DNA from: Gaiella occulta
GTDB taxonomy: Bacteria; Actinomycetota; Thermoleophilia; Gaiellales; Gaiellaceae
Reading direction: 5' to 3'
Length of the DNA stretch: 64,000 nucleotides
Assembly: GCF_003351045.1 (NCBI RefSeq)
Contig: NZ_QQZY01000003.1
Location: forward strand, 124,001-188,000
This document shows positions 40,413-60,797 of this stretch, one piece after another. The translations under genes were made by a program, and so were the position numbers. The notes beneath the pieces were generated by a model. It saw only the letters and a list, made by a program, of their open reading frames with translations, was not told where the DNA came from and ran no database searches. Within the stretch, counting starts at the first letter, position 1. Each line of letters opens with the position of its first letter.

Positions 40413-40416
40413 GCGA

Positions 40417-41199: not shown

Positions 41200-41297
41200 T
41201 GGTTTCTCGGGTCCCACGTTCTTCGTCGCTGGAAGGTGCGCAGCACCTTCCAGCGCTGAACGGCGTCCGGCAGAAGAAGAGGAGGCGAGCCTGATGG
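41164..41297 (+). repeat. Decayed tandem duplication at the rpsK-rpsD junction, with hairpin and 31-aa bridging ORF
   Basis: Bases 41164-41202 and 41259-41297 match at 35 of 39 positions; each encodes [10 protein letters not shown] and ends in TGATGG. Between them is a 13-bp perfect stem with a GCA loop (41227-41239/41243-41255). The ATG in copy 1 (41199) opens a 31-codon ORF whose TGA (41292-41294) overlaps the rpsD ATG, giving TGATG at both ends. Copy 1 looks like a ghost of the original rpsK-rpsD junction. Confidence 0.75.
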
Positions 41298-41914
41298 CCC
41301 GCGATCTCGGACCCAAGTGCCGTGTCTGCCGCCGCGAGGGCATCAAGCTGTTCCTCAAGGGCGAGCGCTGTCTGACCGAGAAGTGCGCCATCGAGCGGCG
41401 CTCGTACCCGCCGGGAGAGCACGGTCGCGGGCGTATCAAGCAGAGCGAGTACCTGCTGCAGCTGCGCGAGAAGCAGAAGGCGCGCCGGTACTACGGGTTG
41501 CTCGAGAAGCAGTTCCGCAACACCTACGAGAAGGCGACCCGCGGGACCGGCGCACCGGGCGAGAACCTGTTGCGGATGCTCGAGGCGCGGCTCGACAACG
41601 TCGTCTACCGCCTCGGCTTCGCCGGCTCGCGCGCACAGGCCCGCCAGCTCGTGCGTCACGGCCACTTCCAGGTCAACGGCCGCCGCGTCAACATCCCGAG
41701 CTTCGGGGTGCGCCCCAACGACGTGATCACGCTCAAGCAAGGCAGCGCCGCCGCACCCCTCGTGCGCGACGCGACCGATCTGACAGCGTCGGTGTCGCCC
41801 TGGCTGCAGGCCGACCACGAGGGCCTCACCGGCAAGGTGCTGCGGTGGCCCGAGCGCGCCGAGATCGACACGCCCGTCCAGGAATCACTGATCGTCGAGC
41901 TCTACTCCAAGTAG
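41294..41914 (+). CDS. rpsD: 30S ribosomal protein S4, zinc (C+) form
   Basis: 206 residues with zinc-type cysteines C9, C12, C26 and C31, the conserved [11 protein letters not shown] and the S4 RNA-binding domain ([20 protein letters not shown]). It nucleates 30S assembly and in many bacteria represses the alpha operon. AGGAGGCGAGCC gives a strong ribosome-binding site inside the duplicated segment. Confidence 0.97.
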
Positions 41915-41941
41915 GCCGCGAGAGAAGACGAAAGGAACGAT

Positions 41942-42919
41942 TTGGCAACCCGCACCAGCCTGATGGACTTCCAGATTCCGCGCATCGTGCGCGAGGAGAG
42001 CGACGACCGTCGCGGCGTGTTCGCGATCGAGCCGCTCGATCGGGGCTTCGGCTACACGTTCGGCAACTCCCTGCGCCGCGTGCTTCTCTCGTCGCTCGAG
42101 GGCGCCGCCGTCACGGCCGTCAAGATCGAGGGCGTCGCGCACGAGTTCACGACGCTTCCCGGCGTCCGCGAGGACGTCACCGACATCATCCTCAACCTCA
42201 AGGGCCTCATCTGCCGCCTCCACGGCGAGTCCCCGGAGATCGAGGTGCACGTGTCCAAGAAGGGCCCCGGCACGGTCACCGCCGCCGACATCGAGGCACC
42301 CGCCGACCTCGAGATCCTCAACCCGGAGCTCGAGATCGCCCAGCTCGCCGACAAGGGCAAGCTCGAGATGACGCTCACGATCGGCCGCGGCCGCGGCTAC
42401 GTCCCGGCCGAGATGAACCGCGGGCCCGAGACCACCATCGGCGTGATCCCGATCGACTCGATCTTCTCGCCGGTGCGCCGCGTCGCCTACGAGGTCGACG
42501 CTGCACGCGTCGGGCAGCGCACCGACTACGACAAGCTGACGCTCGACGTCACCACCGACGGCTCGATCGAGCCCAAGGACGCGATCGCCCAGGCTGCCGA
42601 GATCCTCATCCGCCAGCTCGCGATCTTCACCGACCTCGAGCGGATCGAGGGCTTCGGCGAGGCAGCCGTCGAGGCTGCCGCCGACGCTGCGGCGTCGCAC
42701 GGCATGGAGAACTTCCCGATCGAGGAGCTCGAGCTGGGCGTGCGCTCGTACAACTGCCTCAAGCGTGTCGGTATCGAGACGATCGGAGATCTCACCTCGA
42801 AGTCGGAGGCCGAGCTGGCCGCGATCCCGAACTTCGGCCGCAAGTCGGTCGAGGAGGTGCGCGAGACGCTCGCCGCACACGGCCTCACGCTCAAGGGCGA
42901 GGATCTCACCTCGTCATGA
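41942..42919 (+). CDS. rpoA: DNA-directed RNA polymerase subunit alpha
   Basis: 325 residues: the N-terminal dimerisation domain ([20 protein letters not shown]), a flexible linker and the C-terminal helix-hairpin-helix domain ([20 protein letters not shown]) that contacts UP elements and activators. The start is TTG 41942, 6 nt after AAGGA; the first in-frame ATG (codon 8) has no Shine-Dalgarno sequence. Like rpoB and rpoC it uses TTG. The stop overlaps rplQ (ATGA). Confidence 0.97.
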
Positions 42920-43293
42920 GGCACGGCAACGCGGGCAAGAAGCTCGGGCGGGACTCCGCCCATCGCAAGGCGCTGTATTCGAACCTCGCGGGCGCGCTGA
43001 TCCAGCACGGCCGCATCGAGACGACCGAGGCGAAGGCGAAGGCGGTGAAGCCGCTCGCAGAGAAGATGATCACGCTCGGCAAGCGCGGCGATCTGCACGC
43101 GCGCAGGCTCGCGCTCGCGGAGCTCCGCTCCAACGACGTCGTGCACCTCCTCTTCGCCGAGGTGGCGCCGCGCTTCGCAGAGCGTGCCGGCGGCTACACG
43201 CGGATCGTCAAGATCGGCCCTCGGCAGGGCGACGCCGCCCCGATGGTGCTGCTCGAGCTCGTCGACTTCGAGCCGGCAGGCGCCGCCGCCTAG
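42916..43293 (+). CDS. rplQ: 50S ribosomal protein L17
   Basis: 125 residues starting [20 protein letters not shown], with [20 protein letters not shown]. It lies at the tunnel exit. The ATG overlaps rpoA. It is the last gene of the ribosomal supercluster; two tandem hairpins follow. Confidence 0.97.
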
Positions 43294-43322
43294 CAGCCTG
43301 GGGCGCGGACGGGGGTGATCGC

Positions 43323-43362
43323 GGAGGGCGCCGAGGCGCCCTCCCGGCTTTGCGAGGCCGGG
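43323..43362 (+). terminator. Tandem hairpins ending the alpha operon
   Basis: GGAGGGCGC/GCGCCCTCC with a CGAG loop (43323-43344) is followed by the overlapping stem CCCGGC/GCCGGG (43343-43348/43357-43362). No T-run is present. Placement after rplQ, before an unrelated gene with its own -10 box, supports termination. Confidence 0.6.
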
Positions 43363-43432
43363 AGAGCCCGGCTCGGCTTGCGCAGGCGCGCGCCGGCGCT
43401 TCACGACGGCCTCGCGCCCGTAGGCTTGCGCC

Positions 43433-43762
43433 ATGCTCACGCTGATCGCCCTGCTGCTCGCGCTCCTCGTCCTGCCTGCGCCGTGGGGAGCCGCCCTCGT
43501 CGCCGTGGCCGCGCTCGCAGACGTCGCGGAGACGGTCGTGCTGGTCCGCTGGTCGAGGCGCCGTCGCGCCGCGGTCGGGCTCGAGACGCTCGCCGGACGT
43601 ACGGCGACCGTCGTCACCACGCTCGCGCCGCACGGGCAGGTGCGCGTGGACGGCGAGCTCTGGGCCGCCCGCTGCACCGCCGCCGGCGCGGTGGCCCGGC
43701 CCGGCGACCGCGTGCGCATCATCCGTGTCGAAGGGCTCGATCTCGTGGTGGAGCCCTTGTGA
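43433..43762 (+). CDS. Small NfeD-like membrane protein
   Basis: 109 residues: two short membrane helices (about 2-18 and 19-38), a basic turn, then an OB-fold domain, GLETLAGRTATVVTTLAPHG followed by VRVDGELWAARC and GDRVRIIRVEGLDLVVEPL, as in NfeD C-terminal regions. NfeD proteins partner with flotillin-like proteins or SPFH-associated proteases; no partner is adjacent. A TAGGCT box ends 6 nt before the ATG, so the transcript is probably leaderless. Confidence 0.8.
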   Translation: MLTLIALLLALLVLPAPWGAALVAVAALADVAETVVLVRWSRRRRAAVGLETLAGRTATVVTTLAPHGQVRVDGELWAARCTAAGAVARPGDRVRIIRVEGLDLVVEPL

Positions 43763-43778
43763 CATTCTGTTACAAGCG

Positions 43779-44498
43779 ATGACGACGCTCCGCCTGACGA
43801 TCGAGTACGACGGAACGGGCTTTCACGGCTGGGCGCGGCAGCCGGGACAGAGGACCGTCGAGGGCGCGCTGCGGGACGCGCTCGGGCGCACCTTCCCTCG
43901 CTGGAGCGATCTCGCCGTGGCGGGACGCACGGACGCGGGCGTGCACGCGACCGGGCAGGTCGCGTCTGTCGTCGTCGCGGGAGGCCCGCCGCCCGAACGC
44001 GCCGCCGAGGCGCTCAATGCCGGCCTGCCGCCCGACGTGGCGGTGCTGCGCTGCGAAGCCGTTGCGCACACGTTCCACGCCCGCTTCTCCGCGCGCGCCC
44101 GCTCCTACCGCTACGTGGTGCTCAACCGCCCGCAGCGCTCGGCGCTCGAGGCCCGGCGCTCGCTGTGGTGGCCGCGTCCCGTCGACGAGGAGGAGCTACG
44201 CGCCTGCGCCGCGCTCGTCCCCGGCGAGCACGACTTCACGGCCTTCACTCCCACGGACACCCAGCACCGGGTGTTCCTGCGGAACGTCGCCGCCGCGGGC
44301 TGGGAGCGGCGAGGCGATCACCTCCACTTCACCATCACCGCCGACGCGTTTCTGCGCCACATGGTGCGCACGCTCGTCGGGTCGATGCTCGAGCTGCCCG
44401 CGGAGCGCTTCGCGCCCCTGCTCGAGGGCCGCCACCGCTCCGAGGCGGGAGCGACGGCGCCGCCCTGGGGCCTGTACCTCGAGCACGTCTGCTACTGA
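43779..44498 (+). CDS. truA: tRNA pseudouridine(38-40) synthase TruA
   Basis: 239 residues with the catalytic Asp52 in AGRTDAGVHA, the N-terminal LTIEYDGTGFHGWARQPGQR and FLRHMVRTLVGSMLEL near the end. It modifies U38-40 in the anticodon arm of tRNAs. It often follows rplQ; here a small nfeD-like gene lies between. The ATG is 16 bp after that stop. Confidence 0.95.
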   Translation: MTTLRLTIEYDGTGFHGWARQPGQRTVEGALRDALGRTFPRWSDLAVAGRTDAGVHATGQVASVVVAGGPPPERAAEALNAGLPPDVAVLRCEAVAHTFHARFSARARSYRYVVLNRPQRSALEARRSLWWPRPVDEEELRACAALVPGEHDFTAFTPTDTQHRVFLRNVAAAGWERRGDHLHFTITADAFLRHMVRTLVGSMLELPAERFAPLLEGRHRSEAGATAPPWGLYLEHVCY

Positions 44499-44502
44499 CG
44501 GC

Positions 44503-44547
44503 GTGACGGGGAAGTCGCCGCCTTCCTCGACGACTCGTTCCCGTCAC
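44503..44547 (+). terminator. Possible stem-loop after truA
   Basis: GTGACGGG (44503-44510) pairs with CCCGTCAC (44540-44547) across a 29-nt interior. It is a weak candidate terminator in the 118-bp gap before the HAD gene, which otherwise shows only the TACAAT box. Confidence 0.35.
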
Positions 44548-44604
44548 AGCGCCGGCGGCTCTCGCCCCGCGCCCGTGACGGCCGGCTCGGGGCGGCAGCC
44601 TCCA

Positions 44605-44610
44605 TACAAT
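44605..44610 (+). promoter_or_regulatory. -10 box of the HAD phosphatase-ligA unit
   Basis: TACAAT ends 6 nt before the GTG at 44617, so transcription would begin at or next to the start codon. No clear -35 box is visible. The following ligA overlaps the phosphatase gene and should share this promoter. Confidence 0.5.
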
Positions 44611-44616
44611 CGCCCT

Positions 44617-47435
<2,819 letters not shown>

Positions 47436-47439
<4 letters not shown>

Positions 47440-48503
47440 CCGTAGATGGTGATCGTGACGGTGCGGCGCCCCCACGCGCGCGCGCGGGCGGTGCTCGGCA
47501 TCCAGAGGTCGATGATCGCTCCCTTGATCGCCGTGCCGACGTCGGCGGCGACCGCCGGGCCGTATCCCGGCACGAACACCCGCGTGCCCAGCGGGATCAC
47601 GGTCGGATCGACCGCGATCACCCCGATCCCGACCGGGATCCCGCTCGCCGTCCTGCCCGGGAGATGGTAGGCGACCGCGTCGACGACGAGCGTGCGGGTG
47701 CCGCCCGGCGGCTGCGGCGCGGGAATAGGGTCGGGTGGCTGCGGCGATGTCGTCGTCGTGTCGACCGCCGTCGCCGGCTCCGCCCTGGCCGCCGCGGCCG
47801 CGGCCGCGGCCGCGAGCTTCGCCGAGGCACGCTGCGCCGCGCGCGCTCTCTCCTCGAGCGCGGCGATCTGGACATTCGTGAGGGCGCGTCGGCGCCTCAG
47901 TCCGGCCACCGTCGAGGCCCGCCGTGCGACCGCGTCCTCGAGCTGCCGCGCCGCCGCCCGCGCGTCGCGCCGCGCGCGCTCGAGGTCGCCTCGCCGCTTC
48001 GCGAGGCGCGTGCTCAGCACGCGCAGGGTCGCGGCCCGGGACTGCGCCTCCCGCCCGAGACGGGCGCTCTGGGAGGCTGCGCGACTCAGGCTCTCGATTC
48101 CGGTCACCGCCTCGTCGAGGGAGCTCGCGCCGAGGATGACGGCGATCGGGTCGGCGTCGCCCTGCACGTAGAGATCGCGGAGGAGCGAGGCCAGACGCTG
48201 CCGCGAGGCGGCGAGTGAGCGCCGGACGATGCCCGTGCGGCGCCTGGCGTCGGCCTCGGCGGCGGCGAGGGCCGCCGAGCGCGCCTCCAGCGCGGCGAGC
48301 GCCGCGCGCGAGCGTGCGAGGGACGACTCCGCCGCGTAGAGCTGCAGCAGCGCAGCCTGCTCCGCGCGCTGCAGCGCTGCACCCCTGGCGCGGAGCGCGG
48401 GCACCGTGTCCGCACCGCCGGAGGGCGGCGACAGCCCGATGATCAGCGCTCCGGCGGCAACGGCCGCGACGAGCGGCGCACGCCTTCCGGATCGACGTTC
48501 CAC
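47436..48503 (-). CDS. Secreted coiled-coil protein with C-terminal 3D domain
   Basis: From the GTG at 48503 the protein is 355 residues. It has a signal peptide (basic start, hydrophobic AAVAAGALIIGL, Ala-rich cleavage region), a long Ala/Arg/Leu coiled coil (about 35-235), a Thr/Pro-rich linker and a 3D/double-psi-barrel domain with three aspartates (AVDPTVIPLGTRVFVPGYG, AADVGTAIKG, IDLWMP) as in resuscitation factors and YabE/YocH-like wall lytic proteins. It probably acts on peptidoglycan outside the cell. I chose 48503 over the GTG at 48527 because a TACGGT box lies 9 nt upstream (48518-48513). A decayed dacB is coupled downstream. Confidence 0.82.
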
Positions 48504-48582
48504 AGGGGCGGGACCGTAGCACACCACGCTGCGCCGCTCGGGGACAAAAGTCCGATGAGCAGGGATTTTCTGCTGTCACCGG

Positions 48583-48611
48583 TTGCAACCGTCCTTGCTC
48601 GCTGCTACGGT
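48583..48611 (+). promoter_or_regulatory. Promoter of the NlpC/P60 gene
   Basis: TTGCAA (48583-48588) and TACGGT (48606-48611) are separated by 17 bp, giving a 5' leader of about 55 nt before the ATG with GAGGGG as its ribosome-binding site. It is divergent from the 3D-domain gene, so two cell-wall genes share this region. Confidence 0.6.
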
Positions 48612-48671
48612 TTTGCTCCCGTGACGGGTAACGCCGCCACCGACGGTCCCGGCGACGGTCGAACGAGGGGC

Positions 48672-49829
48672 ATGAACAGCTCGAGAACGCGACAGGCTCC
48701 GGCCGCCCTGCTCGCCGTCGCCGCGCTCGTCGCGGCCCTGCTCGCGGTCGCCCCGTCGGCGGCCGCGGATCCGTCGCTGCGATCCAAGCGCGCCCAGGCG
48801 CAGGCCGTGCTCGCCCGGATCACGGCGTCGAACGCGCAGCTCGAGCACGTGATCGAGTCGTACAACCTCGCGAACGTCCAGCTCGGCCGGATCGAAGCCG
48901 ATCTCCAGTCGAACGCGCGGCACCTTGCCGTCGCGCGGGAGAGCCTCGGCGCCGCGCAGGCGCACGTCGCGCGGCGCCTGCGCTCCCTGTACATCAACGG
49001 CGACAGCGGCGGCGCCGTCGAGATCCTGCTCGGGGCGGAGAGCCTCGACGACCTGCTCACCCGCATCGACATGGTGCAGCGGGTCGGAGATCTCGACGCG
49101 AAGGTGCTCGCCGACGTGCGGACGTTCCGCAGGGAAGTGGAGAGCCGCAGGGCGCTGTTGCAGAAGGCGCGCGTGACGCAGGCCCGCGTCGTCGCCGAGC
49201 GGGTGAGCCGCAAGCGCGTGATCGAGGGCGCGCTCGCGCAGCAGCGGCGCATGCTCGCCGGCCTCGAGAAGGAGATCGAGCAGATCAGGGCGGCCGAAGC
49301 GCGCAGGCAGGCTGCTCTCGCCGCGCAGGCGCGCGCGCGGCTCGCCGCCCGGCAGGCCGCCGCCACGCTGGCGGCCCGGGCCCAGCAGCTCGAGCCCGCC
49401 GACGCAGGCTTGCCGGCACTCGATGCGGGCAGTCCGGACGGCGCCGGCGGCACCTCGGCCCGAGCCATCGCCCCTCCGCCCCCACCGGCTCGCTACGGCG
49501 GCGTCGTCGCCATCGCGATGCAGTACCTCGGCGTCCCCTACCTCTGGGGTGGGGCGAGCCCGAGCGGCTTCGACTGCTCGGGGCTCGTGCAGTTCGTCTT
49601 CAACCAGGTGGGCGTGTCGCTTCCCCACCATGCTGCGTCCATCTACGGCTACGGCACGCCCGTGGCGCAGTCGGACCTCCAGCCCGGCGACCTCGTATTC
49701 TACAACGGCCTCGGCCACATGGGCATCTACATCGGCGGCGGCCAGTACATCAACGCGCCCCAGACCGGAGACGTGGTCAAGATCTCCAGCATCTACCGCA
49801 GCGGCTGGGTCGGCGCGCGCCGCCTGTAG
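48672..49829 (+). CDS. Secreted NlpC/P60 peptidoglycan endopeptidase
   Basis: 385 residues: signal peptide ([20 protein letters not shown]), a long coiled coil (about 38-240) like that of RipA/PcsB-type proteins, a Pro-rich linker and a C-terminal NlpC/P60 domain with C302 (FDCSGLVQF), H349 (GHMGIYIG) and N361 as the catalytic set. It should cleave peptide stems of peptidoglycan, with the coiled coil probably controlling access or binding an FtsEX-like regulator. The ATG follows GAGGGGC. It is the divergent partner of the 3D-domain protein. Confidence 0.9.
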
Positions 49830-49869
49830 CCAGGACGGAGCCGTAGTCGCGGGGGCGGCCTCGCGGAGA

Positions 49870-51633
49870 CTATCCCTCGTAGAGCTCGTCGACCGCGGCG
49901 GCGAAATGCTGCATGACGACGCGGCGCTTCAGCTTGAGGGTCGGGGTGATCTCGTCCCGCTCCATCGAGAAGTCGCGCGGGAGGATCGTGAAGCGCTTGA
50001 TCTGCTCGAACCGCGACCGCTCCCGGTTGACCCCGTCCACGATGCCCTGGACGAGCGCCCGCACGCGCTCGTCGGCCGCCAGGGAGGCGACGTCGCCGTC
50101 GATCCCCTGCCGGCGGGCCCACTTGGCGATCTCGGCCTCGTCCAAGGTGATGAGCGCCGCAGGGTACGGCTTGCGGTCGCCGACGACGAGCGCCTGCGAC
50201 ACGAACGGCGACGCCTTGAGGTCGTTCTCGAGGTTCTGCGGTGCGATGTTCTTGCCGCCGGCGGTGACGATGATGTCCTTCTTGCGGTCGGTGATGCGCA
50301 CGAAGCCGTCCGCGTCGATCTCGGCGATGTCGCCCGATCGCAGCCAGCCGTCGTCGCCGAGCACCGCGGCCGTCGCCTCGGGATCCTTGAAGTAGCCCGC
50401 GAACACCGTCTCGCTGCGGATCAGCAGCTCGCCGTCCTCGGCGAGCCGCAGCTCGAACCCCGGCAGCGCCGGGCCGACGGTGCCGAAGCGCCACCGCTCC
50501 GGCGTGTTCGTCGTCGCCGCCGTCGTGCACTCCGTCAGCCCGTATCCCTCCAGGATGCGGATGCCGAACGAGTCGAAGAACTCCGCGATCTCCCGCGCGA
50601 GAGGCGCGCCGCCGGAGATGGGCGTGCGCAGGCGGCCGCCGAGGCGCTGCCGGATCCTGCGCAGCACGAGCCGGTCGGCGACGCCGTGCCGGAGCCGCAG
50701 GCCGAGCGGCACGGCGCGATGCGCCTCCTCGAGCTTGCTCACGCGGCGGCCGACGGCGAGCGACCATGCGGCCAGCCTGCGCTTCGCCCCCGACGTCTCC
50801 GAGAGCGCCGACACGACCGCCGTGTGGATCTTCTCGTACACGCGGGGGACGCTCGGCAGCACCGTCGGGTGCAGCTGCTCGAGCGCGACGCCGACCTGCA
50901 GCGGGTCGGGAAGGAACGCGATCGTGTAGCCGACGTAGGCGCCGGTGAGGTGCATCAGTCGCCCGAAGTTGTGGGCGAGCGGCAGGTACAGCAGCATCAG
51001 GTCGTCGTCGCGCACGTACATGGGCAGATGGTCGATCACCGACGCCATCGCGTAGTAGTTGCGGTGGCGGATCATGCAGCCCTTCGGCGGCCCCGTCGTC
51101 CCCGACGTGTAGATGAACGTGAACAGGTCATCCTCGTCGATCGCCGCCACCGCCTCGTCGAGCGCGCCCGGATGCTCTGCCTCGTAGACGGCGCCCTCCG
51201 CCTCGAGAGCGGGCAGGTCGTCGAAGGTCAGCAGGTGGCGGAGGCGTGGAAGCGACGCCCGCTCCTCCTCGACCTTCGCCCGCTGCGCCTGGTCCTCGCA
51301 CAGCACGCCGATCGACTCCGAGTGGTCGAGGATGTAGGCGGCATCCCTGGGCGAGCTGTTGGCGTAGATGGGGGCGCCGACGGCGCCGACCTGGGCAAGG
51401 GCGAAGTCGAACAGCGACCACTCGAGCGTCGTGCGCGCGAGGATGGCGAAGGCGTCGCCCTTGTGGACTCCACGCGCGAGCAGGCCGTTGGCCATGTGCC
51501 GGACGCGCTCGGCCGCCTCGTCCCAGGTGACGGCGTGCCAGTGGTCGCCGTGGGCCACCAGGTAGGCGGCTCCGGGGCGCCCGCGGGCCACGGCGTCGCG
51601 CCAGAGCCGGGCGATCGTGCGGTTGGAGCTCAC
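49870..51633 (-). CDS. Long-chain fatty-acid--CoA ligase (AMP-forming)
   Basis: 587 residues with the AMP-binding P-loop [11 protein letters not shown], the GYGLTE motif, the [20 protein letters not shown] hinge and [16 protein letters not shown], all diagnostic of FadD/long-chain acyl-CoA synthetases of the FadD15 type. It activates fatty acids for beta-oxidation, consistent with the acyl-CoA genes further downstream. The GTG at 51633 lies 8 nt after a TAGATT box (51647-51642), so a leaderless start is likely. Upstream in-frame codons to 51852 look non-coding. Confidence 0.92.
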
Positions 51634-51763
51634 CGGCCGAGAATCTACAGGTGCTGGAAGCGGGGATGCGGGCTCAGAGGGCGTGACGAGGAGCGCGACA
51701 CGCACCGCCCGGCACGGATCGCCGGGCTTCGGCTCGTCATCCTCCCTGCCGGGGCCGCCGCCG

Positions 51764-51937
51764 CTAGGCGTGCTGGGGCACAGGCGCGCCGACGGCCTGC
51801 AGCTGCGCCTGGAACAGGTGCTTGTCGATCTTTCCCTGGTAGATGGGGACACCCTCTTCGACGCAGAGCTTGATGATCACGTCACGATCCATGCCGAGCT
51901 CCTTCGAGAGCTCTTCCGGCGTCAAGTGGTTCGCCAT
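51764..51937 (-). CDS. Small helix-turn-helix-like protein (57 aa)
   Basis: 57 residues, [20 protein letters not shown] then [18 protein letters not shown], reads like an excisionase/MerR-type winged helix start: a helix-turn-helix followed by a short strand region. The ATG has an excellent AAGGAGG 3-9 bp upstream. It lies about 20 nt behind a T-tailed hairpin on the same strand, so its expression probably depends on read-through. The function is unknown; DNA binding is an inference. Confidence 0.7.
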
Positions 51938-51958
51938 TCGTCGCCTCCTTCGAGCATC

Positions 51959-51997
51959 AAAAAAAAGCCCGCCTGCGCAAGTGCGCACGGTCGGGCT
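51959..51997 (-). terminator. Intrinsic terminator/attenuator with T8 tail
   Basis: On the minus strand AGCCCG-ACC-GTGCGC pairs with GCGCAGGCGGGCT (51997-51966), followed by TTTTTTTT (51966-51959). It is the only classical T-tailed terminator I found here. It lies between a short promoter-ORF unit and the small HTH gene, so it could end the Nif3 transcript, define a short RNA, or attenuate the HTH gene. Confidence 0.75.
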
Positions 51998-52025
51998 GCC
52001 GAGGCTCGGTTGTGAGTGGCGGGGT

Positions 52026-52071
52026 TCAACGGGCCCGCCTCCCGAAAAGCACCATGATGGTCCCGAGGATA
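52026..52071 (-). other. Candidate promoter and 9-aa leader ORF upstream of the terminator
   Basis: A TATCCT box (minus strand, 52071-52066) lies 10 nt before an ATG (52055) encoding MVLFGRRAR and a stop. The ORF ends 29 nt before the terminator hairpin. Box, short ORF, terminator and gene in that order is the layout of transcription attenuation. The evidence is positional only. Confidence 0.35.
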
Positions 52072-52128
52072 CTCCCGCGCGATGACGTCGGCAACGGGGC
52101 GACGTCCCCCGGCGCCGCGGCCGCGCGG

Positions 52129-52869
52129 CTACACGGGGTTGTCGGCCTCGACGTAGTGCCATGCCAGGTCGAAGCGCTGCGCCAGATGGGCGGCCAGCGC
52201 CTGCACGCCGTAGCGCTCGCTCGCATGGTGGCCTGCGGCGACGAGGTGGATGGAGAGCTCGCGCGCCGTCGCGTAGCTGGGCTCCTCCGGCTCTCCGGTG
52301 ACGAGCGCGTCGTAGCCCTCGTGGGCGGCGCGGATGAGGTCGTATCCCGCCGCCCCGGTCGAGATCGCGATGCGGCGGATCGTCGCGGGGCCGAACGGGA
52401 ACACGAGCGGCTCGCGCGCGACGGCCTCCCCCACCCGCGTGGCGAGCTCGTCGATGCCGAGCGCCTCGACGGTGCAGCCGAGACCGACGCCGGCGAACGG
52501 GCCGTCGGGGGCGGCACCGATGCGCGCGGCGAGCTGCGCGCTGTTGCCCAGCGTGGGATGCGCGTCGAGCGCGAGGTGGTAGGCGAGCAGCGACGCGTTG
52601 CCGCGGAACAGCGCCTCGAGCCGGCCGCGCAGCCGCCGGTCGACGACGAGCGGCTCGTTGCGCCAGAACAGCCCGTGGTGCACGAGCACCATCTCGGCGC
52701 CCATCTCGACCGCGCGCTCGAACAGGTCGCATGAGCTCGAGACGCCGCACGCGATCGTCGACACGTCCTCCGCTCCGAGCACCTGCAGCCCCGACGCACC
52801 GAACTCGGGCCACTTCTCCACCTCGAGCAGCGCGTTCGCATAGGCGGCGATCTCGTCGCGGGCGGCCAT
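52129..52869 (-). CDS. Nif3-like dinuclear metal-centre protein (YbgI/NIF3 family)
   Basis: 246 residues with VLVHHGLFWR (metal-binding H64-H65), LLAYHLALDAHPTLGNSAQL and a C-terminal GHHASERYGVQALA with further histidines. Members are often annotated as GTP cyclohydrolase I type 2, but the biochemical role is unsettled. The ATG at 52869 lies 7 nt after a TAGACT box (52882-52877), giving a leaderless transcript. It is divergent from tRNA-Pro. Confidence 0.9.
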   Translation of the reverse strand: MAARDEIAAYANALLEVEKWPEFGASGLQVLGAEDVSTIACGVSSSCDLFERAVEMGAEMVLVHHGLFWRNEPLVVDRRLRGRLEALFRGNASLLAYHLALDAHPTLGNSAQLAARIGAAPDGPFAGVGLGCTVEALGIDELATRVGEAVAREPLVFPFGPATIRRIAISTGAAGYDLIRAAHEGYDALVTGEPEEPSYATARELSIHLVAAGHHASERYGVQALAAHLAQRFDLAWHYVEADNPV

Positions 52870-52942
52870 CGTCGACAGTCTAGGGACGTGAGCCGCGGAC
52901 GACCGCGCCGCCCGGCGGCCGAGTCGGTACCCTTTCGGCGCT

Positions 52943-53016
52943 CGGGGTGTGGCGCAGCCTGGTAGCGCGCTCCGTTCGGGTCGGAGAGGTCCCCAGTTCA
53001 AATCTGGGCACCCCGA
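52943..53016 (+). tRNA. tRNA-Pro (anticodon CGG)
   Basis: Acceptor CGGGGTG/CACCCCG, D-arm GCGC...GCGC, anticodon stem CTCCG/CGGAG with loop TTCGGGT (CGG), T-arm CCCAG-TTCAAAT-CTGGG and discriminator A; no encoded CCA. It reads CCG codons. A TACCCT box (52928-52933) lies 9 nt upstream, and a hairpin terminator follows. Confidence 0.96.
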
Positions 53017-53022
53017 TTGGGG

Positions 53023-53047
53023 GTGGGGGAGCCTATGGTTCCCCCAC
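53023..53047 (+). terminator. Hairpin terminator after tRNA-Pro
   Basis: GTGGGGGAGCC (53023-53033) pairs with GGTTCCCCCAC (53037-53047), with two G-U pairs, around TAT. The 117 bp after it up to the HAD gene show only a TATCCT box. Confidence 0.6.
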
Positions 53048-53164
53048 CAGCCCCCTCCTTCGGCGCCACCGCACGTATGACGTTCCCCCGGCCTCCCGCC
53101 GCGCCGAGCCCGGCTCCGGCTGCAGAGGCGGCCCGGCCTCGAGGGTAGGGCTATCCTCGGTCGC

Positions 53165-53845
53165 GTGCTGCGGGCCGTGCTCTTCGACGTCGACTTCACC
53201 CTGTCGCGGCCTGGTCCCGAGCTCGGGCCCGAGGCCTACCGGGCCGTCGGGCTCGAGCACGGCCTCGATCTCGACCCTGCTGCCTACGAGGCCGCGCGGC
53301 TGGCCGCGCTCGCCGACCTTCAGCGCCATCCCGAGCTCGAGCACGACGCGGAGATCTGGATCGCGTTCACCGAGGACATCGTGCGCGGGATGGGCGGCGC
53401 GGCGTCCGCTGCACGCGCCTGTGCGGTCGACATGGTGCGCCGCTGGGAGGTGCACGCCAACTTCAGCCTCTACGACGACGCGCTGCCGACGCTCGCGCTG
53501 CTGCGGGCGCGCGGGCTCGCGCTCGGCCTCGTCTCGAACGGCCAGCGCGACCTCGAGGAGTTCGCCGCACACCACGCGCTCGACGTCGACATCGCCATCG
53601 GATCGAAGGCGCACGGTCGCACCAAGCCGCACGCGTCGATCTTCGAGACGGCGCTCGCTGCCCTCGGCGTCACCCCCGCCGAGGCCGCGATGGTCGGCGA
53701 CTCCTACGAGGACGACATCGAGGGTGCGCGTGCGCTCGGCATGCGGGCTATCCTGCTCGACCGCGACGGCCTCCACCCGCACGAGCCGGACCGGATCCGC
53801 GACCTGCGCGCGCTGCCCGCGGCGCTCGGCCTCGACCCGGCATAG
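53165..53845 (+). CDS. HAD-superfamily hydrolase (haloacid dehalogenase-like)
   Basis: 226 residues with motif I FDVDFTLSRPG (D8, D10), a helical cap domain, motif II LVSNGQRD, motif III K in HGRTKPHASIF and motif IV MVGDSYEDDIEGA. Motif I has Phe where phosphatases usually have Gly, as in some YjjG/2-haloacid-dehalogenase relatives. The substrate is unknown. The GTG lies 7 nt after a TATCCT box (53152-53157), indicating a leaderless transcript. Confidence 0.85.
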   Translation: MLRAVLFDVDFTLSRPGPELGPEAYRAVGLEHGLDLDPAAYEAARLAALADLQRHPELEHDAEIWIAFTEDIVRGMGGAASAARACAVDMVRRWEVHANFSLYDDALPTLALLRARGLALGLVSNGQRDLEEFAAHHALDVDIAIGSKAHGRTKPHASIFETALAALGVTPAEAAMVGDSYEDDIEGARALGMRAILLDRDGLHPHEPDRIRDLRALPAALGLDPA

Positions 53846-53879
53846 GGTCGCGCCGCTGGGCCTCGGGCCCGTCGAGCCC

Positions 53880-54857
53880 CTACGGCAGGTCGAGCTCTCC
53901 GCGCCATGCCTCCGTGTGGGCGCCCAGCGCGACGTCCTCGTCGGCGGCGTCGCGGGAGCCGAACACATCCGCCGCCTCGGCCCGCGTCCACACCGGTCCC
54001 GCGCAGACGTCCTCGCGATCGAACAGCGCCAGCCACTCCGCCAGCGGGCGCGACGCGAACAGCGCCGCGAGCTCCCCCGCGAGGCGCTCCTGGTCGTCGT
54101 CGAACTGCCTGCCGGCGAGCTCGGGGCGGCCGGCGAGCTCGCACAGGCGGATGAAGAACTTCGGCTCGAGCGCGGCGACCGTGAGATGGCGGCCGTCGGC
54201 CGCCTCGTAGACGCGGTAGCAGGCAAGGCCGCCCGTCAGCATCCGTGGGACGGGGTCGCCGCCGAGGCGGTGCTCGACGAGGTCGTGCGCGCGGTGCGTC
54301 ATCGAGATCTCGATGCGCGCCCCCTCGCCCGTCCGTGCCCGCCGCACGAGCGCGGCGAGGATCTCCGTCACGGCTCCCAGCGCTCCCGCGGCGAGGTCGG
54401 CGATCTGAAGCGGTGGGGACGCCGGCGCGGTGTCCTCGAGCGCGCCCGCCCAACCGAGATAGTTGAGGTCGTGGCCGGCGCGAGCGGCATGCGGGCCGGT
54501 GCTGCCGAACCCCGTGATCGAGCAGTACACGACGCGGGCGGGGACGTCCTCCGGGCCGACACCGAGCCGCGCCGCGACGCCGGGGCGGAACCCTTCCAGC
54601 ACCACGTCCGCACGCGCGCAGAGGGCGCGGGCGAACGCCGCGTCCGTCTTCAGGTCGCAGACGACGGACTCCTTGCCGCGCCGCAGCGCGCGGTCCCACG
54701 CCGGCGCCGACCTGCGCATGGGGTCGCCGTCCGGCGCCTCCATGCGAACGACCCGCGCGCCCAGGCGTGCGAGCTCCCGCCCCGCGTAGGCGCCGGGGAG
54801 GTAGCGGGTCAGCTCGGCGACGAGCGTCCCCGCGAGCGGTTGCGCGGCGGCCAGCAC
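53880..54857 (-). CDS. CaiB/BaiF-type CoA-transferase (formyl-CoA transferase family)
   Basis: 325 residues with PLAGTLVAELTRYLPGAYAG at the start, GARVVRMEAPDGDPMR, the LRRGKESVVCDLK segment, GHDLNYLGWAGAL carrying the expected catalytic Asp, and FFIRLCELAGRPEL. Family III CoA-transferases move CoA between carboxylic acids; close relatives include alpha-methylacyl-CoA racemase. The GTG at 54857 is 6 nt from CAGAAT (54869-54864), itself 18 bp from a TTGAAC box overlapping the operator at the divergent tetR start, so the neighbouring TetR protein probably controls it. Confidence 0.85.
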   Translation of the reverse strand: MLAAAQPLAGTLVAELTRYLPGAYAGRELARLGARVVRMEAPDGDPMRRSAPAWDRALRRGKESVVCDLKTDAAFARALCARADVVLEGFRPGVAARLGVGPEDVPARVVYCSITGFGSTGPHAARAGHDLNYLGWAGALEDTAPASPPLQIADLAAGALGAVTEILAALVRRARTGEGARIEISMTHRAHDLVEHRLGGDPVPRMLTGGLACYRVYEAADGRHLTVAALEPKFFIRLCELAGRPELAGRQFDDDQERLAGELAALFASRPLAEWLALFDREDVCAGPVWTRAEAADVFGSRDAADEDVALGAHTEAWRGELDLP

Positions 54858-54896
54858 GACCCTATTCTGACCGAGCCTTGACTGAACGTTCAATCG
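54840..54896. promoter_or_regulatory. Divergent promoters and operator between CoA-transferase and tetR genes
   Basis: Plus strand: TTGCGC (54840-54845), 17 bp, TATTCT (54863-54868). Minus strand: TTGAAC (54893-54888), 18 bp, CAGAAT (54869-54864), so the -10 boxes overlap. The 19-bp site TTGACTGAACGTTCAATCG (54878-54896), with palindromic core TGAACGTTCA, covers the tetR TTG start and the minus-strand -35 box. A close copy lies at 59574-59592. Confidence 0.65.
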
Positions 54897-55504
54897 TACC
54901 GCGGGAGGCGGGCGCCGAGAAGCGCCGCCTCATCCTGGCCGCCGCCGTCCGCGTGTTCGCCCGCGACGGCTACCACACCTCGCGCGTCGGCGACATCGCC
55001 GAGGAGGCGGGCATCGCGCACGGGCTCCTCTACCACTACTTCTCCTCGAAGGAGGAGGTGCTCGAGACCGTCTTCCGCGACAACTGGCGGGAGCTGCTGG
55101 GGCTGATCCGCCGCGTCGAGGAGTCGGACGAGCCTGCCGACGAGCAGCTGCGCGGGATCGCGAAGATCCTGCTGCGCTCGTGGCGCAACGATCCCGACCT
55201 CGTCACGGTGATGGTGCGCGAGGTGGCCCGCAGCCCGCATCTGCAGGGTCAGGTGGAGGAGATCCGCGAGGGCTTCGCCTCCATCCAGCGGGTGATCGAG
55301 CGGGGTCAGGCGCAGGGCGTGCTCCGCGCCGACGTCGACGCGCGTCTCGCGAGCTGGATCTTCTACGGCGGCCTCGAGGAGCTACTGACGGGATGGGTGC
55401 TCGGCCAGCTCCCCGACGGTGACGAGGAGGTCGCCCGTGCAGAGCGGACGATCATCGACGTCGTCTGCGGCGGTCTCACCGCCCGCGACACCGTCCCCGC
55501 CTGA
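54878..55504 (+). CDS. TetR-family regulator, FadR-like
   Basis: 208 residues: the N-terminal TetR helix-turn-helix (KRRLILAAAVRVFARDGYHT, SRVGDIAEEAGIAHGLLYHY, FSSKEEVLETVF) and a C-terminal ligand domain (ILLRSWRNDPDLVTVMVREV) of the kind found in fatty-acid-responsive FadR/YsiA-type repressors. The TTG start lies inside its own presumed operator, pointing to autorepression, and a matching operator fronts the acyl-CoA dehydrogenase 4.7 kb away. An acyl-CoA ligand is likely from context but not shown. Confidence 0.88.
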   Translation: MTERSIVPREAGAEKRRLILAAAVRVFARDGYHTSRVGDIAEEAGIAHGLLYHYFSSKEEVLETVFRDNWRELLGLIRRVEESDEPADEQLRGIAKILLRSWRNDPDLVTVMVREVARSPHLQGQVEEIREGFASIQRVIERGQAQGVLRADVDARLASWIFYGGLEELLTGWVLGQLPDGDEEVARAERTIIDVVCGGLTARDTVPA

Positions 55505-55526
55505 CGGCCCCTCCGCCGCCCGCACG

Positions 55527-56780
55527 ATGGTCACCCTCGGCGTGGGCGCGATGGGCCTCGCCTGGTCGCTGACGACGACGGCCGCCTACCTGCCGCCGCT
55601 GCTGCGGGAGTTCACGGGCTCGACGACGCTGATCGCGCTCGTGCTCGCCGCCGAGGGCGTGTTCGCGATCACGCTGCCGCTCGTCATCGGCCCCTGGAGC
55701 GACACGTTCCACACGCCGCTGGGACGGCGGCGGCCGTTCATGCTCGCCGCCGTCGGCCCGATCGGGTTCTGCCTCGCGCTGATCGCGTTCATGCCGAGCC
55801 TGTGGACGACCGCCCTGCTCGTGTTCGCCTTCTTCTTCGCCTACTACGTCTACGAGCCGCCCTACCGCGGCCTCTACCCCGACGTACTGCCCGACGACGT
55901 GTTCGGACGTGCCCAGGGGGTGCAGCACCTGTTCCGCGGCGTCGCGCTGGGGGCGGCCCTGATCGGCGGCGGCCTGCTCTTCCACCTGTGGCGGCCGGCG
56001 CCGTTCCTCGCCGCCTCGCTCATCGTCACCGCCGCCTGCCTCGTGCCGATCGTGCTCGTGCGCGAGGACGGCGGACGCGGGCAGGTGTTCGAGGGGGTCG
56101 GCACCTACGTGCGCCACTCGTGGCGGGTGCTGCGGCGCAATCCCGACGTCGGCAAGTTCCTGCTCGCCAACGCCGCCTGGGAGGGGACGTTCGCCGGCGC
56201 GCGCACGTTCGTCGTGCTCTACATCACCGTCGGGCTCGGGCAGCCGCTGTCGACATCGACGCTCGTGCTCGCCGCCGTCGCGGGCGGCTACATCGTCGCG
56301 GCCCTCGTGTCGGGGCCGGTCGGCGACCGCCTCGGCCTCGCCCGCGTGATCACCGCGTGCTCGGTCGTCTACGGCGTCGGACTGCTCGCCGGCGGCCTCG
56401 CGCGCACCTGGCACGACTGGTACCTGCCGATCGTGTTCGTGGTCGCGATGTTCGCAGGCTCGGTGATGACGCTCGCCTGGGGGCTTCTCTTCAAGCTCAT
56501 GCCGGCCGGCGATCGAGGCGCCGTGTCCGGCCTCGCCACGACGACCAAGGGTCTCGGCCTCATCGTCGGGCCGCTGCTCGCCGGCGCGCTGATCGACATC
56601 CTGCGCCCGACGCTCGCCTCGACGAGCGGCTACCAGGCGCTGTGGCCCGTGCTCGGGATTCCCATCCTGCTCGTGATCCCGCTCGTGGCCTCCCTGGCCG
56701 CCGCGGAGAAGCGGTCGGCGGCAGAGGCGCCCGCAGGCGACGGTGGCAGCGGCGACCGTCCGAGCGGGCTGCCGCTGTAG
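55527..56780 (+). CDS. MFS transporter (sugar-cation symporter-like)
   Basis: 417 residues from ATG 55527, about 12 membrane helices, with the loop motif GPWSDTFHTPLGRRRPFMLA resembling the MFS A-motif of glycoside-pentoside-hexuronide and sucrose/H+ symporters, and the second-half repeat GPVGDRLGLARV. The substrate is not predictable. It lies 22 bp after tetR and may be co-transcribed. Upstream in-frame sequence overlapping tetR is low-complexity, so the ATG is preferred. Confidence 0.82.
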   Translation: MVTLGVGAMGLAWSLTTTAAYLPPLLREFTGSTTLIALVLAAEGVFAITLPLVIGPWSDTFHTPLGRRRPFMLAAVGPIGFCLALIAFMPSLWTTALLVFAFFFAYYVYEPPYRGLYPDVLPDDVFGRAQGVQHLFRGVALGAALIGGGLLFHLWRPAPFLAASLIVTAACLVPIVLVREDGGRGQVFEGVGTYVRHSWRVLRRNPDVGKFLLANAAWEGTFAGARTFVVLYITVGLGQPLSTSTLVLAAVAGGYIVAALVSGPVGDRLGLARVITACSVVYGVGLLAGGLARTWHDWYLPIVFVVAMFAGSVMTLAWGLLFKLMPAGDRGAVSGLATTTKGLGLIVGPLLAGALIDILRPTLASTSGYQALWPVLGIPILLVIPLVASLAAAEKRSAAEAPAGDGGSGDRPSGLPL

Positions 56781-56813
56781 CTCTGCGGGCCCGCGCGAGC
56801 GGCGGCTCCGCTC

Positions 56814-57473
56814 TCAGCCGGCGAGCGACTCGCGCAGGCGCGCGAGGGCGCGGGCGCGGTGGGCGTCCTGGAGCGCGACGACGGCATCCGCGTCGCCGCG
56901 TGCGACCGCGGCGAGGATCGCCCTGTGTGCCCGGTCTGCCTCCGCGCTCTCGCCCGGCAGGACGTAGTAGAGCGCGCGGTACGCCTCGGTCGAGTCCCAC
57001 AGCAGGTCGATCAGTCGCTGCAGCGGCGCGCTCCGCGCGAGACCGTGCAGGTGCCCGTGGAAGCGGCGGTTCGCCCCGAGCTGTGCGGCCACGTCGCCCG
57101 CCGCGCCTGCCTCCCGGCACGCGTCCGCCGCTTCCGCGAGCAGCGCGAGATCGTCCGCGCACGCGAGCGGCACGCCGCGCCGCAGCGCATCCGTCTCGAG
57201 GAGCCGCCGCAGCCGGTACACCTCCTCCAGGTCGGCGAGGTCGAGCTGGGTGACGGCGTACCCGCGCCGCGGCCTGTAGGTGACGAGCCCCTCGCCGGCG
57301 AGCGCGCGCAGCGCCTCCCGCACGGGGATGAGGCTGACCCCGGCCCGCGCCGCCCACGCCTCCTGGTTCACCCGCTGTCCCGGCCGCAGCTCTCCCTCGA
57401 GGATCGCCGTGCGGAGCTGTGCCGCGGCGCGATCCTGCGCGGTGGGCGTGCGTGCGGCCGGGGCGATCGTCAT
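56814..57473 (-). CDS. GntR-family regulator, FadR/FCD subfamily
   Basis: 219 residues with a winged helix-turn-helix (ILEGELRPGQRVNQEAWAAR, VSLIPVREALRALAGEGLV) and an all-helical FCD ligand domain with its metal-coordinating histidines (RRFHGHLHGLA, DRAHRAILAAVARGD). FCD regulators sense carboxylates or acyl-CoAs. It starts 4 bp after the glutaryl-CoA dehydrogenase stop on the same strand, so it is probably co-transcribed with and controls that gene. Confidence 0.9.
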   Translation of the reverse strand: MTIAPAARTPTAQDRAAAQLRTAILEGELRPGQRVNQEAWAARAGVSLIPVREALRALAGEGLVTYRPRRGYAVTQLDLADLEEVYRLRRLLETDALRRGVPLACADDLALLAEAADACREAGAAGDVAAQLGANRRFHGHLHGLARSAPLQRLIDLLWDSTEAYRALYYVLPGESAEADRAHRAILAAVARGDADAVVALQDAHRARALARLRESLAG

Positions 57474-57477
57474 CGGC

Positions 57478-58668
57478 TCAGCGGAAGGCCGGCGTGCCGG
57501 TGATCGCTCCCCCGACGACGAGCGTGTGCACCTCGTGCGTGCCCTCGTAGGTGAGCACGCTCTCGAGGTTGTTCATATGGCGGATGACCGGGTACTCGAG
57601 CGTGATCCCGTTGCCGCCGAGGATCGTGCGCGCGCTGCGGCAGACCTCCAGGGCGCCGCGCACGTTGCCCATCTTGCCGAGGCTGACGTGCTCGGGCCGC
57701 AGCGTGCCGCTGTCCTTCATGCGGCCGATGTGCAGGGCGACGAGGGAGGCGCGGTTGATCTCGAGCACCATCTCGGCGAGCTTCTGCTGGGTCAGCTGGT
57801 AGGCGGAGATCGGCTTGTCGAAGACGATCCGCTCCTTCGCGTAGGCGAGCGCCTCCTCGTAGCAGGCGCGGGCGGCGCCGACGGCGCCGAACACGATCCC
57901 GAAGCGGGCCTCGTTGAGGCACGAGAGCGGCCCGCGCAGCGTGCTCGCGCCGGGGAGCATGCTCTCGGCCGGGACGCGGACGTCCTGCAGGACGAGCTCG
58001 GAGGTGACGGACGCCCGCAGCGAGATCTTCTTGTGGATCTCCGGTGCGCTGAAGCCGGGCGTGCCCTTCTCGACGACGAAGCCGCGGATCTCCCCGTCCT
58101 CGGTGCGGGCCCACACGATGGCGATGTCCGCGATGGTGCCGTTCGTGATCCACATCTTGGCGCCGTTGATGACCCAGTCGCCGCCGTCGCGCTTCGCGTG
58201 CGTGCGCATCGTGCCCGGATCGGAGCCCGCGTCCGGCTCGGTGAGCCCGAAGCACCCGATCACCTCGCCGGCGTGCATCGCGGGCAGCCAGCGCTCCTTC
58301 TGCTCCTCGGAGCCCCAGCGCCAGATGGCGAACATCGCCAGCGAGCCCTGCACCGACGCCGCGCTGCGAATGCCGGAGTCGCCGGCCTCGAGCTCGAGGC
58401 AGGTGAGGCCGTAGGCGACCGCGCTCGCGCCGGGGAGGCCGTACCCGTGCAGGTGCATGCCGAGGAGACCCAGCTTGGCGAGCTCCTGGATCACCTCGCG
58501 CGGCAGGATCCCCCGCTCGAACCAGTCGCCGACCTCGGGCAAGATCTGCTCCCGGACGAACTGGCGCACGGTGTCGCGGATCGCCCGTTCCTCGTCGTCG
58601 AGGAGGGCGTCGAGCGCGAGGAAGTCGAGTGGGTCGAGCGCGGGCTGGGCAGTGGTGGGCGCGGCCAC
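57478..58668 (-). CDS. gcdH: Glutaryl-CoA dehydrogenase
   Basis: 396 residues of the acyl-CoA dehydrogenase fold. Features specific to glutaryl-CoA dehydrogenase are the GIRSAASVQGSLAM block with the Arg/Ser pair that binds the distal carboxylate, LNEARFGI, and catalytic Glu375 in TYEGTHEVHTL. It oxidises and decarboxylates glutaryl-CoA to crotonyl-CoA in lysine, tryptophan or benzoate breakdown, using FAD. The GTG at 58668 follows GGTTCCTTCC; a TAGGAT box lies about 38 nt upstream (58712-58707). A GntR regulator follows. Confidence 0.9.
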   Translation of the reverse strand: MAAPTTAQPALDPLDFLALDALLDDEERAIRDTVRQFVREQILPEVGDWFERGILPREVIQELAKLGLLGMHLHGYGLPGASAVAYGLTCLELEAGDSGIRSAASVQGSLAMFAIWRWGSEEQKERWLPAMHAGEVIGCFGLTEPDAGSDPGTMRTHAKRDGGDWVINGAKMWITNGTIADIAIVWARTEDGEIRGFVVEKGTPGFSAPEIHKKISLRASVTSELVLQDVRVPAESMLPGASTLRGPLSCLNEARFGIVFGAVGAARACYEEALAYAKERIVFDKPISAYQLTQQKLAEMVLEINRASLVALHIGRMKDSGTLRPEHVSLGKMGNVRGALEVCRSARTILGGNGITLEYPVIRHMNNLESVLTYEGTHEVHTLVVGGAITGTPAFR

Positions 58669-58734
58669 GGAAGGAACCTCCAGGGTCGAGAAGCGCGGGC
58701 CAGAAATCCTATAGAAAAACTGCGCCGTGTGACG

Positions 58735-59589
58735 TCAGCCCGCCGCCGCCGCCGCCGACCAGCGCCCCGCTTGCCGTATCACGCGCAGGCGCAGCCCGAA
58801 GCACGCCGTCAACGGGTCGTCCGCCAGCGTCTCCGCGGCGCCGCCCGCCGCGACGGCGCGGCCCTGCCGCAGCAGCAGCGCGTGCGTCGTCGAGACCGGA
58901 AGCTCCTCGAGGTGGTGCGTCGAGAGCACGATGGCGAGGCCGGGGTCCGTGCCGGCCAGCCGATCGAGCGCTGCCAGCAGGGTCTCGCGGCCGGGCACGT
59001 CGAGGCCGGCGAACGGCTCGTCGAGGAGCAGCAGGCGCGGCCGCGCGACGAGCGAGCGCGCGATCAGCGCGCGCTTGCGCTCGCCCTGCGAGCAGTCGGC
59101 GAAGCGGCGGTCGCCGAGCGGGCCGAGCCCGAAGGCCCCGAGGAGCATGTCGGCGCGCTCGCGGTCGAGGCCGCTGAGGCGCTCCTCGAAGGAGCCGATC
59201 GTTCCCGTCGCACCCGTGTGCACAACCTGGCGCACCGTCAGCATCGGGGCGAAGCGGGCGCCGAGCCGTGCGTCGACGAAGCCGATGCGCTCGCGCAGCC
59301 GCTGCACGTCGGTGCGGCCCATCGTGCAGCCGAGGATCTCGACCGTGCCGCGGCTCGGGAACTCGACCGCGGCGGCGAGCGTCAGCAACGTCGTCTTGCC
59401 GGCGCCGTTGGGCCCGAGTAGCGCCCAGCGCTCGCCCGCGCGCACGTGCCAGTCGATGCGGTCGAGCAGGGCCCTGCGCATGCCGCTCTCCCGCTGCCAG
59501 CGCCACACCTCGACGCCCGTCAGGCGGAGCGCGTCCGCCGCTTGACCGGACGGGGCGCGTCCCTCTACACTTATTGACTGACTAGTCAA
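58735..59589 (-). CDS. Orphan ABC-type ATPase
   Basis: 284 residues from the TTG at 59589, one ATPase domain: Walker A GPNGAGKTTLL, Q-loop-like FVDARLGARF, a degenerate signature CSQGERKRALIARSL in place of LSGGQ, Walker B RLLLLDEPFAGLD and H-loop STHHLEE. It resembles YlmA/ModF-like stand-alone ATPases, and no permease gene is adjacent. The first 20 residues lie over the operator and promoter of the divergent acyl-CoA dehydrogenase, so the real start may be the GTG at 59508 or another codon downstream. Confidence 0.8.
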   Translation of the reverse strand: MTSQSISVEGRAPSGQAADALRLTGVEVWRWQRESGMRRALLDRIDWHVRAGERWALLGPNGAGKTTLLTLAAAVEFPSRGTVEILGCTMGRTDVQRLRERIGFVDARLGARFAPMLTVRQVVHTGATGTIGSFEERLSGLDRERADMLLGAFGLGPLGDRRFADCSQGERKRALIARSLVARPRLLLLDEPFAGLDVPGRETLLAALDRLAGTDPGLAIVLSTHHLEELPVSTTHALLLRQGRAVAAGGAAETLADDPLTACFGLRLRVIRQAGRWSAAAAAG

Positions 59590-59592
59590 TCG
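59542..59592 (+). promoter_or_regulatory. Promoter and TetR-type operator of the acyl-CoA dehydrogenase gene
   Basis: TTGACC (59542-59547) and TACACT (59566-59571) are 18 bp apart. Directly after the -10 box lies TTGACTGACTAGTCAATCG (59574-59592) with palindromic core TGACTAGTCA, covering the predicted transcription start. It agrees with the tetR operator at 15 of 19 positions; only the central four differ. Confidence 0.7.
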
Positions 59593-59612
59593 AGTTTCCG
59601 GGAGGGTGCCTG

Positions 59613-60797
<1,185 letters not shown>

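Follow-up and report, generated by a model that had tools for sequence, protein, structure and literature searches.

How is the gene for a small helix-turn-helix (HTH) protein of Gaiella occulta controlled, and does the short leader before it sense arginine? The question arises from positions 51764-52071 of a 64,000-nt stretch of DNA, called the window below, whose minus strand had been described in a sequence-only reading as a transcription attenuator or a short stable RNA of about 100 nt, with a possible response to arginine or tRNA charging. The TATCCT box, the 9-codon ORF, the terminator, the Shine-Dalgarno sequence, and the 57-aa ORF named there are all present in the sequence where they had been placed, and the mini-ORF does carry three Arg codons (AGG, CGG, and CGT). 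To these parts we add a -35 hexamer and a hairpin around the leader stop. The locus is laid out as follows.

52094-52089, minus strand: -35 hexamer TTGCCG
52071-52066, minus strand: -10 box TATCCT, separated from the -35 hexamer by a 17-nt spacer holding CGTC
52055-52026, minus strand: putatively leaderless 9-codon ORF (MVLFGRRAR), with its UGA stop at 52028-52026
52039-52018, minus strand: hairpin 1 (GGCGGG/CCCGCC), whose loop holds the stop codon (UGA) of the mini-ORF
51997-51959, minus strand: intrinsic terminator, stem 51997-51966 and eight T at 51966-51959
51950-51944, minus strand: Shine-Dalgarno sequence AAGGAGG, 6 nt before the ATG of the HTH gene
51937-51764, minus strand: conserved 57-aa ORF, winged-HTH-like by predicted fold

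The start codon of the mini-ORF lies 10 nt past the -10 box. The upstream neighbor on the same strand is a DUF34/NIF3 gene (Pfam E 3.2e-47), and the unit begins after its stop codon. A tRNA-Pro (CGG) predicted by ARAGORN at 52942-53017 on the plus strand, and absent from the Rfam matches at the gathering score, overlaps the extended 5' part of the listed NIF3 frame.

Our answer, which we hold to be fairly probable from the comparison of related loci, is that this is a cis-acting leader in which the behavior of a ribosome on a leaderless mini-ORF would control transcription of the small HTH gene.

A leader between a shared promoter and one gene

Within the family, 92 of 103 genomes encode the HTH protein, and within the class 104 of 149 do; the phylum sample gave 10 of 149 genomes, all ten members of the same class. 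At the level of DNA, a 241-base stretch had matches at E 0.001 in 29 of 61 genomes. The named contigs with close relatives are labelled mostly Actinobacteria, Thermoleophilia, Gaiellaceae, or Gaiella, and the single ones labelled Burkholderiales and Acidobacteriota probably come from mislabelled metagenome bins; on these labels, the window would very probably be placed in Gaiellaceae. Of the 209 loci collected, 158 were distinct (91 Gaiellaceae loci, 4 others of the order, and 63 from the wider class); L028-L030, which came from short DNA matches, were not counted as gene loci. Of 41 genomes searched with a covariance model, 27 had the leader at E <1e-3, each a single time and always directly before the HTH gene; the strict filters of this search lose weak matches, and many of the loci had also served to build the model.

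The promoter is conserved beyond its two hexamers. In 58 of 88 Gaiellaceae loci, TTG stands 17 or 18 nt ahead of the -10 box, and spacer positions -16 to -13 are C, G, T, and C in 68-78 of the 88. This form of promoter with a CGTC spacer occurs at 50 of 91 Gaiellaceae loci (0.7 expected), at 3 of the 4 order-level loci, and at 14 of the 63 class loci (0.5 expected); the pattern TTGCNNNCGTCA..TATNNT has one match in the whole genome. The loci that have it include class members devoid of the leader, where it starts 61-77 nt from the gene as against 141-179 nt. Since the same promoter stands nearer the gene when the leader is missing, the leader has the look of a module placed between a shared promoter and the HTH gene. 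A stricter motif was found in 2 of 25 genomes, both times at the HTH gene, and we therefore claim no regulon. The CGTC(C) block, kept at this gene across the class even where there is no leader, is possibly an operator for autoregulation.

A start-proximal mini-ORF follows the TANNNT box by 6-10 nt in 90 of the 91 distinct Gaiellaceae loci (81 AUG and 9 GUG starts); the sole miss, L132, has CTG in place of ATG when its sequence is read by eye. With its start codon so close to the predicted transcript start, the mini-ORF is putatively leaderless. Its length is nearly fixed, at 9 codons in 63 loci, 10 in 17, and 8 in 8 (88 of the 90), with two outliers of 15 and 29 codons. The constraint is specific to the frame: a stop at codon 8-10 is found in frame 0 in 88 of 91 loci, and in frames 1 and 2 in 0 and 0 of those 88. 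The stop is UGA in 90 of 90 mini-ORFs, a count in which the stop codon was not a selection criterion and which comes from related loci rather than 90 independent events (the HTH gene was counted in 32 genera). As a background, UGA ends 39 of 105 GC3-selected ORFs of the Gaiellaceae loci, and 11 of 33 such ORFs across the window. The leader peptide varies widely in its residues across the family. The HTH gene itself favors UAG while its own leader has a fixed UGA (TAG 58, TGA 16, TAA 16, and one cut off among the 91 loci).

Outside Gaiellaceae, a leader of 7-14 codons was recognized in 14 of the 63 class loci. Most class members thus have no recognized leader, which means that the HTH protein does not need one. 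In some class loci (L084, L150, L176, and others), a T run resembling a terminator lies some 50 nt ahead of the gene, and the upstream ORFs have 22-28 codons, longer than and different from the Gaiellaceae mini-ORF. At L056, L063, L101, L122, and L026, the leader is separated from the gene by some 60 nt more than elsewhere, and some of these loci have a second T run in between.

Two covarying hairpins

The pairing around the stop codon was assessed at loci chosen for a UGA stop (101, 97 distinct). In the register i+j=-1, 70.3% of pairs are standard, compared with 33-52% in 14 other registers, and hairpin 1 formed 477 of 679 pairs when the maximum of 2000 shuffles was 427. An alignment of 83 leaders covered both helices; its 84 references omit L154, L193, L197, L098, and L131, which belong to other families or have long terminators, and L044 was dropped from the final version. 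Two-sided changes were observed at 13 of the 15 named pairs, namely at all 7 pairs of hairpin 1 and at 6 of the 8 of the terminator. Paired cells make up 79.1% of helix 1 and 95.1% of helix 2, or 87.6% for both together, against 80.4% after shuffling and 36-49% in slid registers. Conservation of the hairpin had been suggested as a check by the sequence-only reading, and the stems do appear to be kept, with covariation, across Gaiellaceae leaders.

The hairpin enclosing the stop was also more stable than with shuffled flanks in Gaiellaceae (mean -12.2 vs -8.7, n=88) and among the leaders of the class (-8.8 vs -6.9, n=14), with no gain at the four order-level loci (-7.5 vs -9.0). L027, from a sister family, and L167 have no hairpin around the leader stop. 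Folded as a single sequence, the window leader is unremarkable (z -1.8), so the evidence beyond chance is comparative. RNAalifold on a MAFFT alignment returned the terminator alone, and hairpin 1 is shown by the stop-centered analysis and the named structure.

Judged by its sequence, the second element is an intrinsic terminator, a GC-rich hairpin followed by a T run and kept by covariation. TTTT occurs at most 110 nt before the HTH gene in 85 of the 91 Gaiellaceae loci, and a Shine-Dalgarno-like tetramer precedes the gene in all 91. The T run at 51966-51959 is the sole run of at least six A or T in the 64-kb window, and a loose scan of 44000-60000 listed this terminator (51997-51959) alone. 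The same scan listed 4 weak candidates in 1-20000, 7 in 20001-40000, and 1 in 40001-45000, all with interrupted T-rich tails and about as many as in shuffles. The earlier description of the only T-tailed terminator in the window holds for T runs of six or more and has to make room for these weaker candidates. No Rfam family matched the leader at the gathering score; relaxing the search to E up to 5 gave three matches, all far under their gathering scores, and the SRP-RNA-like look of the leader is unsupported by Rfam. A pseudoknot between loop and middle was seen by eye in a few loci and is not general.

Taken together, the promoter, the frame and length of the ORF, the UGA, the two covarying hairpins, and the position before one gene are the parts of the proposal that the comparison of sequences supports.

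What the leader may sense

We propose that RNA polymerase would start within a few bases of the mini-ORF AUG (or GUG) and that a 70S ribosome may load on this leaderless start codon without a Shine-Dalgarno sequence. After 8-10 codons, the ribosome would arrive at the UGA; as this codon sits in the loop of hairpin 1, a translating ribosome would have to open the hairpin. The intrinsic terminator about 30 nt downstream of the UGA would stop most transcripts at about 97 nt, and the HTH mRNA would arise by read-through of the terminator only. Three steps are inferred here: translation of the mini-ORF, incomplete termination, and a dependence of read-through on ribosome occupancy. From hairpin 1 to the terminator, the preferred route would be polymerase pausing at hairpin 1 combined with ribosome-polymerase coupling. 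Because the peptide sequence is not conserved, the signal is probably the general translation state (initiation, elongation stress, or UGA release) and not one amino acid. A more specific form, in which the leader would be a minimal sensor of initiation and UGA (RF2) release that acts on the terminator by pausing or coupling without an antiterminator, is put forward tentatively.

An alternative RNA structure was looked for by comparing the pairing of arms from the same species with that of arms shuffled between species in 84 leaders. Own arms paired more strongly only for 1:2 (z -11.1) and 3:4 (z -11.9). Arms 1:3 (z 0.5) and 2:3 (z -1.2) showed no species-specific pairing, 2:4 was weaker than shuffled (z 2.6), and the middle had no such pairing with arms 3 and 4; with arm 1 it paired weakly (z -2.0, one of ten tests). 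In the same leaders, the median probability of the terminator was 0.99 whether the RNA was free or had a ribosome at the start, middle, or stop, and a ribosome in mid-ORF lowered the fraction of terminators above 0.8 from 0.92 to 0.80. For the window RNA, the probability was 0.955-0.969 at every codon position of the ribosome. A mutually exclusive antiterminator and terminator are thus not supported by these models, and thermodynamic folding leaves room for a kinetic effect such as pausing.

These results bear directly on a trp/his-type attenuator responding to the charging of tRNA-Arg, in which stalling at Arg codons would lead to an antiterminator. The three Arg codons of the window peptide suggest it, GRRAR is frequent in the nearest genus, and 27 of 88 mini-ORF peptides end in Arg. 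However, no antiterminator was found, and among the 90 peptides Arg is absent from 4, present once in 32, twice in 36, three times in 15, and more often in 3, so that 36 of 90 have one or none. Arg clusters at codons -4 and -3 (37 and 58 of 88), within the GC-rich stem, and is replaced by Gln, Pro, or Trp where the stem pair changes. At pair 26:47, for example, G-C in 51 rows of the 83-leader alignment gives way to A-U in 9 and C-G in 8; the codon becomes Gln or Pro, and the pairing is kept. That the peptide changes while pairing is maintained argues for selection on pairing, frame, and stop, and not on the residue. No run of codons for one amino acid recurs across the 90 Gaiellaceae peptides, and the downstream product resembles a DNA-binding protein, not an arginine enzyme. 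We consider this explanation very unlikely. Of what the sequence-only reading had proposed, the attenuator-like order and the HTH-like protein stand, together with a predicted promoter of its own and a predicted leader RNA of about 97 nt, and arginine sensing falls away.

The other alternatives concern what the leader is for. The terminator may simply fix a low level of HTH expression, the mini-ORF merely protecting or stabilizing the leader; such a constitutive device would agree with a terminator that forms, by prediction, whatever the ribosome state and with the same promoter motif standing nearer the gene in class members that lack the leader, but it leaves the UGA of 90 out of 90 leaders and the covarying hairpin centered on it unexplained, and we regard it as rather unlikely. 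Somewhat less probable still is that the leader acts chiefly in trans, as a small RNA of about 97 nt, with the HTH gene expressed by leakage. The strong terminator, the separate promoter, and the compact fold would suit a small RNA, yet almost no unpaired sequence that might serve as a fixed seed is kept between genera, the conserved parts are the start, the frame, the UGA, and the stems, and the leader always adjoins the same HTH gene. Finally, there may be no separate unit at all, the terminator belonging to the NIF3 transcript and the mini-ORF being accidental. In its favor, the window has NIF3 ahead of the unit in the same orientation; of 101 loci with enough upstream sequence, 27 have a same-strand NIF3 at most 400 nt away, 13 have one at a greater distance, and in 61 no NIF3 was found. 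Against this stand the conserved promoter between NIF3 and the mini-ORF, the frame-specific stop, and loci L005 and L012, which have a divergently oriented alpha/beta hydrolase gene upstream. A leader found once per genome, always before the HTH gene and also behind a divergent gene, is not a NIF3 read-through tail, and we give this explanation hardly any credit. Likewise, transcription running on from NIF3 with no new 5' end, the outcome that had been named as speaking against a separate unit, is made unlikely by the conserved -35 and -10 elements and the divergent neighbor in L005 and L012; the leader most likely has its own promoter, separate from NIF3 transcription.

The small HTH protein and comparable systems

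The 57-aa protein was modelled by AlphaFold2 (pLDDT 83.7) as two helices, a small wing, and a third helix. Its nearest folds are the DNA-binding domains of Nu1-type terminases, phage Xis, and BldC, at Z 5.6-6.7, which is below the safe level of the tool; the IF2 N-domain scores Z 4.3, and Foldseek gave E values above 0.3. Since calcium-binding and other unrelated chains reach a similar Z, the structural match holds at the level of the fold only. No sequence family reaches its cut-off for this protein and no whiB-type match was listed: the window protein scores 12.3 bits with IF2_N (PF04760), whose cut-off is 25.3, and the best family members reach E 0.0028 with IF2_N and 0.013 with HTH_17 (PF12728), short of the curated cut-offs. 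A sequence search of solved structures returned weak matches alone, sigma factors among them. With caution, we describe the protein as a MerR/BldC/Xis-like winged HTH by predicted fold and as putatively DNA-binding. It appears similar in predicted fold and size to BldC of Streptomyces, Xis, and Nu1, described as small MerR-like winged HTH proteins (PMC5859096), but unlike them falls below the cut-off of every sequence family.

A conserved short ORF, an intrinsic terminator, and a gene, in this order, give the Gaiellaceae leader the broad architecture of a uORF attenuator. Among its closest known counterparts in layout is whiB7/wblC of actinomycetes, where a short uORF and an intrinsic terminator precede the gene for a small regulator, and where the attenuator is reported to answer to general translation stress (PMC11550727). 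In that system, disturbed translation of the uORF is described as favoring an anti-terminator (PMC11550727), whereas none is supported here; the Gaiellaceae ORF also differs in being 8-10 codons long and putatively leaderless with its UGA in a hairpin loop, and the product is a predicted winged HTH. The mycobacterial leaderless poly-Cys uORFs (Canestrari et al. 2020) may resemble it in that a short leaderless ORF controls the downstream gene through the behavior of the ribosome, as reported in PMC9031893 and PMC13236596. According to the same sources, they sense Cys through contiguous Cys codons and work by translation attenuation, whereas in Gaiellaceae the codons vary and the conserved output is an intrinsic terminator. 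The trp-type transcription attenuators, with ilvB1 of M. tuberculosis, are likewise described with a uORF, an intrinsic terminator, and a leader transcript of about 100-120 nt (PMC13236596); the Gaiellaceae leader differs in having neither a run of regulatory codons nor a supported antiterminator. A uORF before a small-protein gene encoding DUF1127 in S. meliloti has been proposed to monitor ribosome availability (PMC12218461). It is presented there as probably Rho-dependent and as having a ribosome-binding site, whereas the Gaiellaceae leader appears to be intrinsic and leaderless. By analogy, the leader may be akin in its logic, uORF-linked attenuation, to whiB7 and the mycobacterial leaderless uORFs.

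Full-text literature searches, judged by titles, returned no description of the leader or of the protein family, and nothing for 'Gaiellales' with 'leader peptide'. The combination of a putatively leaderless start, 8-10 codons, an invariant UGA in a covarying loop, and no antiterminator was not met in these searches. If the proposal is true, the leader would be a translation sensor found throughout Gaiellaceae, a group with almost no genetics. Its near-fixed length, invariant UGA, and sequence-free hairpin would make a clean test of whether the position of a ribosome can gate a terminator without an alternative fold. The leader also provides a way into an unnamed family of small, DNA-binding-like proteins that spans the class. 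As for the neighborhood of these genes, in some relatives such as L012 the HTH gene has a convergent Ku (end-joining) gene downstream, with an AMP-binding enzyme beyond (L012:1815-2780, minus strand).
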